Shown here piece by piece: positions 2,194-55,394 of a stretch of DNA of 64,000 bases. Each line of letters begins with the position of its first letter. Position 1 is the first letter of the stretch. This stretch comes from Janthinobacterium sp. (GTDB taxonomy: Bacteria > Pseudomonadota > Gammaproteobacteria > Burkholderiales > Chitinibacteraceae): the NCBI GenBank assembly GCA_025360045.1, contig JANYCY010000052.1:1-64000 (forward strand), given 5' to 3'. The position numbers and the translations under genes are program-made. The notes beneath the pieces were generated by a model. That model searched no databases. It was not told where the DNA came from and saw nothing but the letters and a program-made list of their open reading frames with translations.

Positions 2194-2295
2194 GTGAAAG
2201 GTTTATTTGAAATGGCAGCGTGGCAGCGGGTGTTGTGTGTGCTGCCTTTATTATTACTACTCTGGGCACTGACTGATTGGGCTTTGCAATCATGA
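2194..2295 (+). CDS. Small 33-aa hydrophobic ORF upstream of znuC (MKGLFEMAAWQRVLCVLPLLLLLWALTDWALQS)
   Basis: GTG start after aaggaaacagcaa; single TM-like segment; TGA overlaps the next ATG (ATGA). Below the ORF-track length cutoff. Confidence 0.5.
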   Translation: MKGLFEMAAWQRVLCVLPLLLLLWALTDWALQS

Positions 2296-2402
2296 TAAAA
2301 GCTCACCAGCTTACACTCTACTATCGCGACCGAGCGGCGATACATTCATTATCCGACCACATTGAAACGGGCAGCCACACCGCGAGGGCTTTGCAAGCAT
2401 GA
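2292..2402 (+). pseudogene. Truncated, diverged copy of the znuC 5' end (36-aa ORF MIKAHQLTLYYRDRAAIHSLSDHIETGSHTARALQA)
   Basis: Direct repeat with the start of znuC (MMEAHHLTLCYRDRAAVHSLSGRFETGSHTA), 107-bp period; its TGA overlaps the znuC ATG. Confidence 0.85.
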
Positions 2403-3118
2403 TGGAAGCCCACCACCTTACGCTGTGCTATCGCGACCGCGCAGCGGTGCACTCATTATCCGGCCGCTTTGAAACAGGTAGCCATACCGCGATTGTCGGC
2501 CCCAATGGCGCGGGCAAATCGACGCTACTTTCTGCCTTGGCTGGCATCAAGACGCCAGACGAAGGCCATATCCATGCCCACGGCAAGGTGGCGTATTTGG
2601 CGCAGCTTTCAACGCTGGATAAACAGTTCCCCTTAATGGTCAGAGAATTGGCTTTAGCGGGCGCTTGGTCTAGGCGCGGCGCTTGGCGTGGCCTATCTAA
2701 GCAAGATCGAGAGCAAGCCGACAGCGCTTTAGAGCAAGTCGGTTTAAGTGATTTTGCCAATGCACCGATCAGCAATTTATCAGGCGGGCAGCTGCAAAGA
2801 GCGCGTTTTGCACGGCTGATTGTAGAAGACGCCGATGTGCTGTTACTGGACGAGCCCTTTGCCAATGTAGATAGCAACACCATAGCTAAACTCTTAGAAG
2901 TGCAACACCACTGGCATCGTATGGGTAAAACACAGATCACCGTCTTGCACGATATTTCGCAAGTGCGGGCGCATTACCCACAAACGCTGCTATTGGCCCA
3001 ATCGGCCATCGCATGGGGCAATACGCCCGATGTACTGACCGAATCGCTACTGGCCGAGGCCAATCGCCGCGCTCAGCACTGGCGCAATGATGCCGCTTGG
3101 TGCGAGGTATGCGAATAA
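2399..3118 (+). CDS. znuC: Zinc/metal ABC transporter ATP-binding protein
   Basis: Walker A GPNGAGKST, signature LSGGQLQRARFARL, Walker B DVLLLDEPF; followed by znuB and znuA. Confidence 0.9.
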   Translation: MMEAHHLTLCYRDRAAVHSLSGRFETGSHTAIVGPNGAGKSTLLSALAGIKTPDEGHIHAHGKVAYLAQLSTLDKQFPLMVRELALAGAWSRRGAWRGLSKQDREQADSALEQVGLSDFANAPISNLSGGQLQRARFARLIVEDADVLLLDEPFANVDSNTIAKLLEVQHHWHRMGKTQITVLHDISQVRAHYPQTLLLAQSAIAWGNTPDVLTESLLAEANRRAQHWRNDAAWCEVCE

Positions 3119-18163: not shown

Positions 18164-18224
18164 GATTGATTCTCCCTTGCTAGGCACAAAGCTTACACCC
18201 ACTCAAGGGCTAAGGGCGAAGGAG

Positions 18225-18264
18225 TGCAGGAATGCAGGAATGCAGGAATGCAGGAATGCAGGAA
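18225..18264 (+). repeat. 8-bp tandem repeat (tgcaggaa)x5
   Basis: Five perfect copies in the divergent intergenic region. Confidence 0.95.
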
Positions 18265-18385
18265 TGCCGCAAGGTGGGCACAGGTCTATGCTGCGCAGAG
18301 CAATTGTTGTTATTACAATGGCATTGTGCGTGCAACATTCTCGGATCTAATATAGCCCCCCAAAAATAAAACCAGGAGCCGCCTC

Positions 18386-19438: not shown

Positions 19439-21799
19439 CTACAGCCCCATCTGCTTTTGCCTAATCGCCAACAAGGCTTGGTTCCTTAGCGTTTTAAGCA
19501 GATTCAATTCCTTGCCCGCTATTTTTAATTCCCCCGCCTTGCCTTTATCGGCATAGAGCAGGCCAATGGTGCGTTTTTCTAATACTAATGGGAAAATAAT
19601 AAAGGTTTGTGATGTGAGGGCGCTGCGATACCAAGTGGGAATACGGCTCTTAATCGATTCCACATTGATATCTTCAATAAAAATATCGGCGTTTCGCTCC
19701 ATTGCCACTTGAAATACATCCACTGCTTTATCTAAGCCAATTTGGAAACGCGGAATAATCTCGCCGATATCGTTGCCAAAGCCAAAACGCCCAACGATTT
19801 GATTTTTCTTTGGGTCGCGCGTGGCAATTAAGACATGCTCAAAGCCCATACTGCGATACATGGTTTCTAAAATCATTCTGAGTAAATCATTTAATTTAAA
19901 GCTAGTCACCAGCGTATTGGTAATATCTTGCACCCCCGCCGATAGGGATTCAGCTGCAGCCACGGCTTGCTCTGGCACGGCCTCTGTATCTAAATCATCT
20001 AAATCAAATTGCTGCGTGCGCACACTCGCCCTATCGATGGTATCCGCCACATATGGAGCATTGGCCTTATCCGTAAGAACGCCAGTTAACACGCGCAGTT
20101 GATTGGCAAAATCACTCTGCCGCGTGTCTACCCCTAAAATACCTAAATAGCCCAAATAGGCGGATGCCGAATCCTTGAGTAAATCACCCAGCTCGCGTGC
20201 GCTCCAACCATAAGCGGGTTTAATTCTTTTTTCCATATCATAAAGCGCACGCTCTGCCGCAGCCTTAGGTAGGTGAACAAGAGGAACTAAGTCCGCGCCA
20301 AGATTGGCAAATAAACGCAGCCGCTCAGTTTGATTTTGCGGCGGCTTCACTGGCCCTTCAGGCAAATGACGCATGCTGGCGATCATCCGCTCAGGGAAAT
20401 TCCAACTCTGTGCCACACCGATGCCTAGCTCTCTAAAGCTTAAACCTAGCACTTGCACCGAAGCGATTTCTTCACCACTACCCGCTTGCACGCGCTTATT
20501 GATCTCGATGTTTTCTTCATGAAAATAATACACTGTCAGTAATTTGCCCAGCGCGGTAAACATGCCGCAAATCAGGCCTTCTTCCACGTCGCGTGCACCG
20601 CTTTTTTTGCCCAGCTCACGCGATAATATCCCGCCAAAAAAGGCGCTCAATACCGCATCCCTAAGCGTGACGGCTTGCGCCTTATTATGCATATGCTCAA
20701 ACAGCAGCAGGGTAATTGCCAAATTGCGAATGGCATCAAAACCTAAAATCACAATCGCTCTGGAAATGGTGCTAATGGTGCCGCCAAAATGCCCGTAGCT
20801 GGCCGAATTCACAATTCTGAGCAATTTATTAGTCAGCGAAAAATCCTGCAAAATCACTTCAGACAAGACCTGTAAGCGCTCTGCATCCCCCTCGTTGATT
20901 TTATTAATCGCCGTGACTGCTTGGGATAAGGCGGGGAAATCGGCGGTGTGGCGCATTCGCCTCAGTAAAAAGTCGAGCGTGCTATTACCGCTACTCTCTA
21001 CCCCTTCCTGCTGATTTTGCCCGCCTAGCCATTCACGCATGGCCAGCAACATGGCCCGCGCATCTTGATAGCGCTCCTGCGGGTTTTTAAACAGCGCCAC
21101 CATCACAAGGTGATCAAGCTTCTCGTCTACGCTATTTTTTAAGCTAGATGGCGGCACAAATGGCTCGTTAGCGATGCGGTGCAAGATGGTATAAACCGAC
21201 TCGCCCTCGGCAGCGGGCCTGCCGGTGAGCATTTGATACAGCGTCATCCCCACCGCAAACACATCGGCCTCGGCATCTACCGGCAAGTTTTGCATCATTT
21301 CGGGGGCCATATAGCCCACCGTGCCGATCATGCCGACTTCCTTGCTGCCGCGCTTGGCAGCGATACCAAAATCCATCAGGCGAGGACGATCATGCTCATC
21401 AAGCATCACATTATGCGGCTTAATATCCCTATGAATCAGCCCTTCCCCATGCGCATAAGCCAAGCCTTCGAGCAGGCCACAAATAATCTCCACCGCGCGC
21501 ACCGGTGGGATGGCCCCCTCGCTAGCAATCAACTGCGCCAGCGTTTGCCCATTCACATATTCAAACACTAAACAGGGGTGGCCGTTATGCAGCAAGGTAT
21601 CGTAAAGCGCCACAATATTAGGATGCTGTAAGCGGCTAACAATTTTAGCCTCTTGAGCGCTTTCGGCAGAATGACTATGCAAAACCTTAATCGCCACCAA
21701 TCTATCCAACTGCGTATCATTCGCAAGAAAAACCAAACCCTGCGCACCCTGCCCTAGCTCTTTAACAACCTTAAACCGCCCCCCTTCAAATTCTTTCAT
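19439..21799 (-). CDS. Ser/Thr protein kinase with HDOD and GAF-like domains
   Basis: VAIKVLH, HRDIKPHNVMLDEHDRPRLMDFGIA; HDOD-like LLRIVNSASYGHFGGTISTISRAIVILGFDAIRNLAI; C-terminal GAF-like region. Confidence 0.9.
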   Translation of the reverse strand: MKEFEGGRFKVVKELGQGAQGLVFLANDTQLDRLVAIKVLHSHSAESAQEAKIVSRLQHPNIVALYDTLLHNGHPCLVFEYVNGQTLAQLIASEGAIPPVRAVEIICGLLEGLAYAHGEGLIHRDIKPHNVMLDEHDRPRLMDFGIAAKRGSKEVGMIGTVGYMAPEMMQNLPVDAEADVFAVGMTLYQMLTGRPAAEGESVYTILHRIANEPFVPPSSLKNSVDEKLDHLVMVALFKNPQERYQDARAMLLAMREWLGGQNQQEGVESSGNSTLDFLLRRMRHTADFPALSQAVTAINKINEGDAERLQVLSEVILQDFSLTNKLLRIVNSASYGHFGGTISTISRAIVILGFDAIRNLAITLLLFEHMHNKAQAVTLRDAVLSAFFGGILSRELGKKSGARDVEEGLICGMFTALGKLLTVYYFHEENIEINKRVQAGSGEEIASVQVLGLSFRELGIGVAQSWNFPERMIASMRHLPEGPVKPPQNQTERLRLFANLGADLVPLVHLPKAAAERALYDMEKRIKPAYGWSARELGDLLKDSASAYLGYLGILGVDTRQSDFANQLRVLTGVLTDKANAPYVADTIDRASVRTQQFDLDDLDTEAVPEQAVAAAESLSAGVQDITNTLVTSFKLNDLLRMILETMYRSMGFEHVLIATRDPKKNQIVGRFGFGNDIGEIIPRFQIGLDKAVDVFQVAMERNADIFIEDINVESIKSRIPTWYRSALTSQTFIIFPLVLEKRTIGLLYADKGKAGELKIAGKELNLLKTLRNQALLAIRQKQMGL

Positions 21800-21873
21800 A
21801 ACGAAGCTTTCCTTTTTCTTCTCCGCCCTAGCTCCTTGACGACTTTAATCCGACCCATTTCATACTCTTTCAT
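21796..21873 (-). pseudogene. Truncated, diverged copy of the kinase gene 5' end (25-aa ORF MKEYEMGRIKVVKELGRRRKRKASL)
   Basis: Direct repeat of the kinase start (MKEFEGGRFKVVKELGQG), 74-bp period; its TGA overlaps the kinase ATG. Confidence 0.85.
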
Positions 21874-21934
21874 AAAGACGCTTTCCTTTTTCTTCTTAGC
21901 AATATAGCCTTAGCGCGCTTAAATCAGGAGCCTA

Positions 21935-22510
21935 TTGTCTGTGTCTATATTAGAAATCATTGGTTTTATCGCCTCTTTACTCGGAATTTGGCTCGCAACA
22001 CGTAGCCATGTGCTGACTTGGCCCCTGCAACTGATCGCCAGCATGCTCTATGTTTGGCTATTTTTTGATGCCAAACTGTTTGGCGAAAGCCTGCTGCAAT
22101 TTATCTACGCCGCCCTCGCTATTTATGGCTGGTGGATGTGGAAACGCAGTGCGGCAGATCACTCACTGCCGATCAGCAAACTGACTCGCCGAGAATGGCT
22201 ACTGATTAATGGCGGCGGACTGCTCCTCACCCTGCTACTTACCCGCTTTCAAGTGCAGTTTTTACCCACCGATCTGCCCCTACTCGATTCAGGCATCTTT
22301 GTCTTTGGTTTGATCGCTCAATGGATGCAGGCACGCAAGAAAATCGAAAACTGGCCGTATTGGATAGCGCTGGATCTGATTGCCTCTGGCGTTTACGCCT
22401 ATAAAGGCCTGCACCTCACCGCCGTGCTTTACGTCATCCTGACCGCATTGGCCGTATCAGGCTGGATAAGCTGGCGCAAAGAGATCGCTAAAGAGATTCC
22501 CAAGGTATGA
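21935..22510 (+). CDS. pnuC: Nicotinamide mononucleotide / ribosyl nicotinamide transporter
   Basis: LATRSHVLTWPLQLIASMLYVWLFFDAKLFGESLLQFIYAALAIYGWWMWKR. Confidence 0.9.
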   Translation: MSVSILEIIGFIASLLGIWLATRSHVLTWPLQLIASMLYVWLFFDAKLFGESLLQFIYAALAIYGWWMWKRSAADHSLPISKLTRREWLLINGGGLLLTLLLTRFQVQFLPTDLPLLDSGIFVFGLIAQWMQARKKIENWPYWIALDLIASGVYAYKGLHLTAVLYVILTALAVSGWISWRKEIAKEIPKV

Positions 22511-52762: not shown

Positions 52763-54234
<1,472 letters not shown>

Positions 54235-54282
54235 CTACCCCTTAGCAGACAACAGCACCGCTCGTACTTGCTCGCCATCTGC
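54235..54282 (-). pseudogene. Duplicated 3' end of astA (last 15 codons plus stop)
   Basis: 46/48 identity to 54369-54416; encodes ADGEQVRAVLLSAKG*. Confidence 0.92.
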
Positions 54283-54288
54283 AAGCAT

Positions 54289-54357
54289 CGTAGGACGGGT
54301 GAAACCCGCCGTTCTTCAACGTATTTCATGGCAAAATCTGGCGGGGTCCCGCCCTAT
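54289..54357. repeat. Repeat family B palindrome between astA and astD
   Basis: cgtaggacgggtgaaacccgcc...ggcggggtcccgccctata. Confidence 0.78.
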
Positions 54358-54368
54358 AAAATACAAAA

Positions 54369-55394
54369 CTACCCCTTGGCAGACAACAGCACCGCTCGCA
54401 CTTGCTCGCCATCTGCGATACCCAGCCTATCCAACACCTCTTGCGTTAATTGCAAGCCATGGTGGGTTTTATGCGCCATCGCAATGGTGCAGCGAAAGCC
54501 GACCAATTTACGATTCGACACTAGCCAAGGCTCCGCATCATCAGCGGCAGTAGGCAACGATTCGGCCACATAGCTGCAACTCGCACGCACTGCACGAATT
54601 TGATTAAGCTCGCATTCCAGCGTGGGGCCTGCGTCAAAAATATCTACATAGCCTTGATAGCGAAACCCTTCGGCTTCTAGCATGGCGCGAGCAGGCCGCG
54701 TTGCCGCGTGAACCTCGGCAATCGTCGCCCGCGCTTCCTCGGGTAAAAAGCAGGTGTAAATCGGATGTTGCGGCATCAGCTCGGCAATAAACGATTTGCT
54801 GCCGACATAGGACAAGAAATCGGCACGGGCAAAATCCATGCGAAAAAAATGCCGCCCCAAGCTTTCCCAAAAAGGCGAAATGCCGTCTTCATCCGAAATG
54901 CCGCGCATTTCAGCAATAATGCGATGCGAGAAGCGCTCGCTATGCTCGGCCATAAATAAGAAACGCGCCTTAGACAGCAAGCTACCATTACCGTCTTTAC
55001 GGTAAAGCGGCAGCAAGAACAAGGAACACAGCTCGCTTGAACCGGTCATATCGCTATTCAAAAATAGCGTTTCCAACTGCTTATAAATGCCTAATTCACG
55101 GGACGCATGCACATTAATGCCGACGCGATAGTTGTACCAAGTCTCATGCATGCCAACAGCGGCCTCAATCGCCGAAGTCCCGACAATTTTCCCCGTCGAC
55201 TCATCTTCCAGCACAAACACATAACTTGCATCCGCCGCATCAGGGGCATCGGCATGCAGCGATGTTTCGCTCGCTAAAATACGCGCAGACAAACGATCAG
55301 GATTCGCTTGCAGGGTGGTTACTCCCACCCCGGCTTCTTTCGCTAAAGCCAGTAACTCAGGTAAATCGCCAGTCTCAATAGGGCGAATCAACAT
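54369..55394 (-). CDS. astA: Arginine N-succinyltransferase
   Basis: MLIRPIETGDLPELLALAKEAGVGVTTLQANPDRLSARI; GPTLECELNQIRAVRAS. Confidence 0.93.
   Translation of the reverse strand: MLIRPIETGDLPELLALAKEAGVGVTTLQANPDRLSARILASETSLHADAPDAADASYVFVLEDESTGKIVGTSAIEAAVGMHETWYNYRVGINVHASRELGIYKQLETLFLNSDMTGSSELCSLFLLPLYRKDGNGSLLSKARFLFMAEHSERFSHRIIAEMRGISDEDGISPFWESLGRHFFRMDFARADFLSYVGSKSFIAELMPQHPIYTCFLPEEARATIAEVHAATRPARAMLEAEGFRYQGYVDIFDAGPTLECELNQIRAVRASCSYVAESLPTAADDAEPWLVSNRKLVGFRCTIAMAHKTHHGLQLTQEVLDRLGIADGEQVRAVLLSAKG

Follow-up and report, generated by a model that had tools for sequence, protein, structure and literature searches.

The window analysed here, a stretch of 64,000 nucleotides from an Iodobacter genome, carries a Ser/Thr protein kinase gene whose 5′ end was found to be duplicated in tandem (Table 1). 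The two copies form a direct repeat of 74 nt and are 81% identical over that length; TRF placed the repeat at 21751-21896, with a period of 74, 83% matches, no indels and a score of 208. An earlier note on this DNA had described the duplication, its period and, on the minus strand, a mini-ORF whose TGA lies on the kinase ATG, and all of this was borne out; the mismatch count, about 11 by hand, was corrected to 12 over the best 72-nt segment (83% identity). From match/mismatch scores, it is estimated that essentially no chance matches of this score would be expected in such an amount of sequence.

On the minus strand, each copy has a Shine-Dalgarno-like stretch rich in purines (AAGAAGAAAAAGGAAAG), followed by an ATG with about 16 codons. 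The TGA of the mini-ORF (21796-21798) overlaps the kinase ATG (21797-21799) as ATGA, and the basic tail of the mini-ORF corresponds, codon by codon, to the kinase's Shine-Dalgarno-like stretch; the kinase N-terminus itself reads MKEFEGGRFKVVKELGQG. The pair is co-directional, with a stop/start overlap of the termination-reinitiation type. Because the NMN transporter gene is divergent, the kinase message is likely to have the mini-ORF as its first reading frame, and since no same-strand gene precedes the kinase, only the mini-ORF and the kinase can form a coupled pair there. The two copies adjoin with a 2-nt joint and without a dispersed repeat between them, so that the locus does not have the form of a REP-element insertion.

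Table 1. Features at the kinase locus and other boundary duplications in the window.
Feature	Position	Strand	Basis or comparison
107-bp tandem duplication at the metal ABC-transporter ATPase start; mini-ORF TGA overlaps the ATG at 2399	2279..2492	+	82% identity; single copy in G007, G004, G005, G008 and G002
Ser/Thr protein kinase, HDOD and GAF domains, intact, 786 aa	19439..21799	-	Orthologues with 86-96% identity in seven further Iodobacter genomes
Downstream copy: Shine-Dalgarno-like region and true kinase start	21751..21824	-	Repeat comparison, TRF; single-copy form in six other Iodobacter species
Mini-ORF, 25 codons, MKEYEMGRIKVVKELGRRRKRKASL before the stop	21796..21873	-	ORF translation; homologous 23-codon ORF with the same ATGA in G007
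Extra (upstream) copy: Shine-Dalgarno-like AAGAAGAAAAAGGAAAG, ATG and first 16 kinase codons, diverged	21825..21898	-	Repeat comparison, TRF
NMN transporter gene (pnuC-like), divergent	21935..22510	+	No same-strand gene ahead of the kinase here
Third boundary duplication: two copies of a 51-nt gene end flanking 83 nt of dispersed REP-like sequence, just ahead of the next gene; no start-coupled ORF	54232..54416	-	

At the kinase leader (21650-22000), neither a terminator-like site nor an Rfam match was found, and the RNA fold was not unusual (z +0.56). With no terminator, no structure and no Rfam family, leader-peptide attenuation and a riboswitch were ruled out for this gene.

Among the eight other Iodobacter genomes compared (G001 to G008), only G001 lacks the kinase; in that genome (L062), a degenerate 5′ remnant with a Shine-Dalgarno-like region persists beside the NMN transporter gene. 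In six species (G002-G006 and G008), the kinase start is single-copy; it reads ATGAA and follows the same Shine-Dalgarno-like stretch. This is the orthologous state expected of a tandem duplication. The sister species G007 (L002), whose kinase is 96% identical, carries the duplication too: an in-frame loss of 6 nt has brought its period to 68, the ORF reads MKEYEMGRFKVVKELRQRRKASS before its stop, and the ATGA is intact. Residues Y4 and M6 are common to both carriers, and the duplication is therefore older than their split. For the full kinase gene, dS was 0.44 and dN 0.02. The comparison of this locus, suggested in the earlier note, thus revealed a duplication that is lineage-specific, yet kept in a sister species.

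Recurrence was determined by two types of scan over 1.26 Mb, about 31% of this Iodobacter genome, with gene calls from a simple purpose-written caller. Lag-by-lag self-comparison yielded 17 short tandem duplications at gene boundaries. Of these, 13 had periods that were 2 mod 3 (binomial P 3e-4, one third being expected); gene-internal tandem duplications were 0 mod 3. The start-anchored scan gave 16 matches per 1,019 genes, compared to 3 per 1,041 for mid-gene anchors, all three of the latter being 0 mod 3. In E. coli K-12 (450 kb), 0 of 368 starts were duplicated (Fisher p 0.01 against this genome), and the values in relatives were 4/298 for G007, 3/320 for G004 (one convincing), 1/145 for G003 and 0/157 for G001; these between-species comparisons of rate involve small samples, with Fisher p of 0.01-0.02. 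In this Iodobacter lineage, members of the class have units of about 55-130 bp and lie across gene starts and the junctions between genes. Genome-wide self-comparison, also proposed in the earlier note, thus uncovered many further duplicated gene starts. The note had reserved the term one-off scar for a situation in which relatives lack the copy and no other cases occur; this combination was not encountered, and a one-off scar was ruled out by the genome scan together with the carrier in the sister species.

A duplicated start was regarded as coupled when the frame set by the copied start met its first stop between -3 and +14 nt relative to the true start. The test set comprised 16 duplicated starts, after L102:9907 (score 15, the score floor) was left out and gshA, missed by the gene caller, was put in. 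Twelve were coupled, namely ABC ATPase, kinase, L089:12879, murF, rsmH, apt, cvpA, the T2SSF/ATPase junction, DUF1656, the L113 secretion ATPase, nuoD and gshA (gene names from family searches), and four were not (miaB, pgpA, 54231 and L125:10606). In a null of 40,840 simulated tandem duplications in the same genes, 53-203 bp long and in any register, only 16.8% were coupled (P 4.7e-7 for the observed 12/16).

The periods of the coupled duplications were 107, 74, 84, 86, 86, 98, 68, 125, 59, 128, 109 and 98. They were 2 mod 3 at ATGA, TTGA and TAATG junctions, 0 at TAG|ATG (84 bp) and 1 at the 11-nt nuoC/nuoD overlap GTGGCTGCTGA (109 bp). The idea in the earlier note that a period of 2 mod 3 creates the coupled overlap is supported at ATGA and was refined for the class: as the duplications of 84 and 109 bp each suit the junction at which they lie, a simple 2 mod 3 law was replaced by one in which the period preserves the geometry of the junction. 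In operons, the bridging ORF often fuses the start of the next gene to the end of the previous one; at the T2SSF/ATPase junction, for example, the ORF MTDAVDMFTRLFEQTFLMLMISVLVGGIVLYMQILKLAGNMQ begins with MTDA like the ATPase and ends with LAGNMQ like the T2SSF protein. For apt in this genome, the copied start codon has been lost, and the ORF would need an in-frame TTG three codons later. Coupling is not obligatory, because 4 of the 16 start duplications are uncoupled and the apt mini-ORF is uncoupled in G004. Phase variation was ruled out, as copy number leaves the frame of the real gene unchanged.

Single-copy orthologous sites were found in relatives for kinase, ABC ATPase, gshA, rsmH, nuoD, pgpA, cvpA and murF, and lineage-specific gain of the duplications was confirmed. 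Copies of the gshA start numbered one in G002, two here, two in G004 and three in G007, every extra copy being coupled. The rsmH, L089:12879 and apt starts were duplicated here and in G004 and single in G002 and G007, the T2SSF/ATPase junction, cvpA and murF were duplicated here and in G007, and gshB, pgpA, nuoD, DUF1656 and ABC ATPase only here among the Iodobacter genomes compared. Of the seven shared mini-ORFs tabulated, six still end on the start in both species, with apt as the exception. This was observed together with changes in length of -6 (kinase), -3 (rsmH), -3 (cvpA) and +4 (L089:12879), the last of which shifted the overlap from 0 to 8 nt. Filler of 21-58 nt occurs in gshA, gshB, rsmH and nuoD, and several fillers are absent from relatives; for most, the 1.26 Mb searched contained no further copy. 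In two cases, 54232 and L113, the copies have dispersed REP-like sequence between them.

Some related arrangements were also observed. At L077:6352-6653, an alpha/beta-hydrolase-like gene carries three coupled tandem copies of its 3′ end, with a period of 107 and TTGA overlaps; G002 and G004 also have extra copies, G007 one. The junction ahead of gspK is duplicated in G007 (L185:5340-5604) and G004 (L129:12367-12920), with periods of 200 and 203 and two and three copies, respectively, both 2 mod 3 and both coupled. At L112:15175-15340, and in relatives (L234, L235 and L246), a tiny bridging ORF of 11-15 codons is ATGA-coupled at both ends; its sequence is unrelated between species, with coupling kept.

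Substitution patterns were evaluated for the seven shared mini-ORFs between species. Pooled pN/pS was 0.40 (p 8e-6), a value that gene conversion between copies could lower, mimicking constraint; changes private to the mini-ORFs, found in none of four species' true starts, comprised 25 silent and 28 replacement changes, a per-site ratio of 0.34 (p 1e-4) that gene conversion would lower less easily, and both ratios are softened by transition bias and small numbers. Divided by part, pN/pS was 0.15 in the start-derived portion and 0.88 in the remainder, and for the T2SSF/ATPase mini-ORF it was about 1, i.e., neutral at the protein level. The mini-ORFs are probably translated. A conserved peptide as their function is contradicted by the neutral T2SSF/ATPase mini-ORF and the neutral tails; no peptide function is claimed, because the T2SSF/ATPase peptide drifts freely, and the peptide itself looks mostly dispensable.

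Taken together, the class probably arose by repeated duplication of junctions, with selection retaining those copies that leave translation uninterrupted and coupled, an explanation supported by the recurrence, the frame rule, the gain by duplication, the persistence through indels and the excess of silent changes. Once a start has been duplicated, translation of a short bridging ORF would begin at the first of the two ribosome-binding sites and start codons; the stop of this ORF would fall on the true start codon, and its last codons would carry the gene's own Shine-Dalgarno sequence. Ribosomes would finish the mini-ORF and then re-initiate on, or be recruited at, the real gene. Where a duplication interrupts this passage, by a wrong period, an early stop, a long out-of-frame overlap or an in-frame protein fusion, it would be purged by purifying selection, and survivors would carry a period set by the geometry of the junction. 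From these patterns, we infer functional coupling of mini-ORF and gene.

Termination-reinitiation coupling is known at short overlaps such as ATGA, TGATG and TAATG (PMC6728339, PMC10666635). Among gene pairs, no other spacing comes close in frequency to short overlaps of 4, 1 and 8 nt; in experiments, reinitiation depends on an overlap or a very short gap, declines as the distance grows to about 20-40 nt, and requires no more of the upstream gene than its last 15 nt (PMC10666635). The duplicated starts resemble such pairs in having overlaps of 4, 1 and 8 nt on the same strand and a Shine-Dalgarno-like sequence in the last codons of the upstream ORF, but here the upstream partner is an ORF of 20-42 codons newly made by duplication of a start or junction, not an inherited gene. 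Like leader peptides and uORFs of attenuated operons, the mini-ORFs are short, presumably translated ORFs directly ahead of a structural gene; unlike in those systems, no terminator or alternative RNA structure was found at the kinase, and the sequence copies the gene's own 5′ end. Small tandem duplications from laboratory evolution and phase-variable repeats share the head-to-tail arrangement and a copy number that can rise (1, 2 and 3 for gshA), whereas the Iodobacter copies are old and diverged, their period is constrained by the junction frame, and the frame of the real gene is never switched. No earlier report of such duplicated coupled starts was found in the open-licence literature on duplication, coupling and Iodobacter.

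GrcA/YfiD, encoded beside pflB, is a 3′-end gene duplication whose product is a functional spare domain. The likeness lies in a piece of a gene end duplicated beside its parent and kept as a small ORF; the difference is the spare-domain function, as against the mostly dispensable appearance of the Iodobacter mini-ORF peptide. A GrcA/YfiD-like candidate was observed in G007 (L181:6131-6579), where the last 58 or so codons of a pyruvate formate-lyase-like gene are duplicated just downstream as a 61-codon ORF.

The kinase copy, limited to this species and one sister, with a short mini-ORF and a leader devoid of terminator, unusual fold or Rfam match, could in itself be an ordinary small tandem duplication that landed once in a harmless frame by luck, coupling having no role. 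This reading is unlikely, and as an explanation of the whole class it is already disfavoured, since the frame bias is class-wide, the period tracks the geometry of the junction, and coupling survives indels in the sister species. A mobile or recombination process directed at gene boundaries (insertion of a REP-like element flanked by a long duplication, template switching or acquisition of diverged DNA), with the frame pattern secondary, would accommodate the REP-like sequence at 54232 and L113, the fillers absent from relatives and the divergence between copies, which often exceeds that between orthologues of different species. It is somewhat more improbable still: the kinase, ABC ATPase, L112 and pgpA cases consist of simple tandem copies without inserted foreign sequence, most fillers are without a further copy in the sequence searched, and targeting alone leaves the frame rule unexplained.

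Adaptive regulation, in which the mini-ORF was favoured as a leader tuning translation (a standby site, dosage or nascent-peptide sensing), would agree with the strong constraint on the start-derived part, the retention of duplications across species and the risen gshA copy number in G007. The genes concerned are functionally unrelated (gshA, rsmH, murF, nuoD, apt, cvpA and secretion ATPases), the kinase has no attenuator-like terminator or structured RNA, and the parts of mini-ORFs not derived from starts drift, which makes this account quite improbable. Fusion of mini-ORF and gene by ribosomal frameshifting or stop readthrough, by which the protein would gain an N-terminal extension and contain a repeated segment, would require a -1 shift at the overlap in most cases; the recoding needed nevertheless varies from case to case (-1, +1, or stop readthrough at TAG|ATG), no common slippery site was noticed by eye, and such fusion is very improbable indeed.

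If selection for coupled translation does act in this way, the duplications are natural mutations that test its strength, nearly only coupled frames surviving. They would also show a definite and repeatable way in which tiny overlapping ORFs, often dropped by annotation pipelines, can arise, and would provide a ready comparative set of gain, copy-number change, retention and loss in one genus. A broader proposal is tentative, its chances being a little short of even: junction duplication may be a recurrent bacterial route to new, translated, overlapping small ORFs, in which a matching stop/start geometry and the right period make the bridging ORF open and coupled at both ends by construction, and the mini-genes then persist, multiply (from one to three in gshA) and drift across a genus under selection for ribosome passage.

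Elsewhere in the window, the companion 107-bp duplication that the earlier note had placed at znuC was recovered at the ABC-transporter ATPase gene and was found in this genome only, among the Iodobacter genomes compared at that locus. The ATGA overlap of this gene with an upstream 33-codon hydrophobic ORF predates the duplication; the small hydrophobic ORF MKGLFEMAAWQRVLCVLPLLLLLWALTDWALQS (window 2194-2295), whose stop overlaps the start at this locus, is recognisable in relatives. Outside the window, a 243-aa alanine/lysine-rich protein built of a 16-residue repeat (48-bp array) was observed at L082:2435-3033. An intergenic array of six copies of an 8-bp unit (AGGAATGC) lies at 18220-18267 of the window and may represent a slippage-prone repeat.
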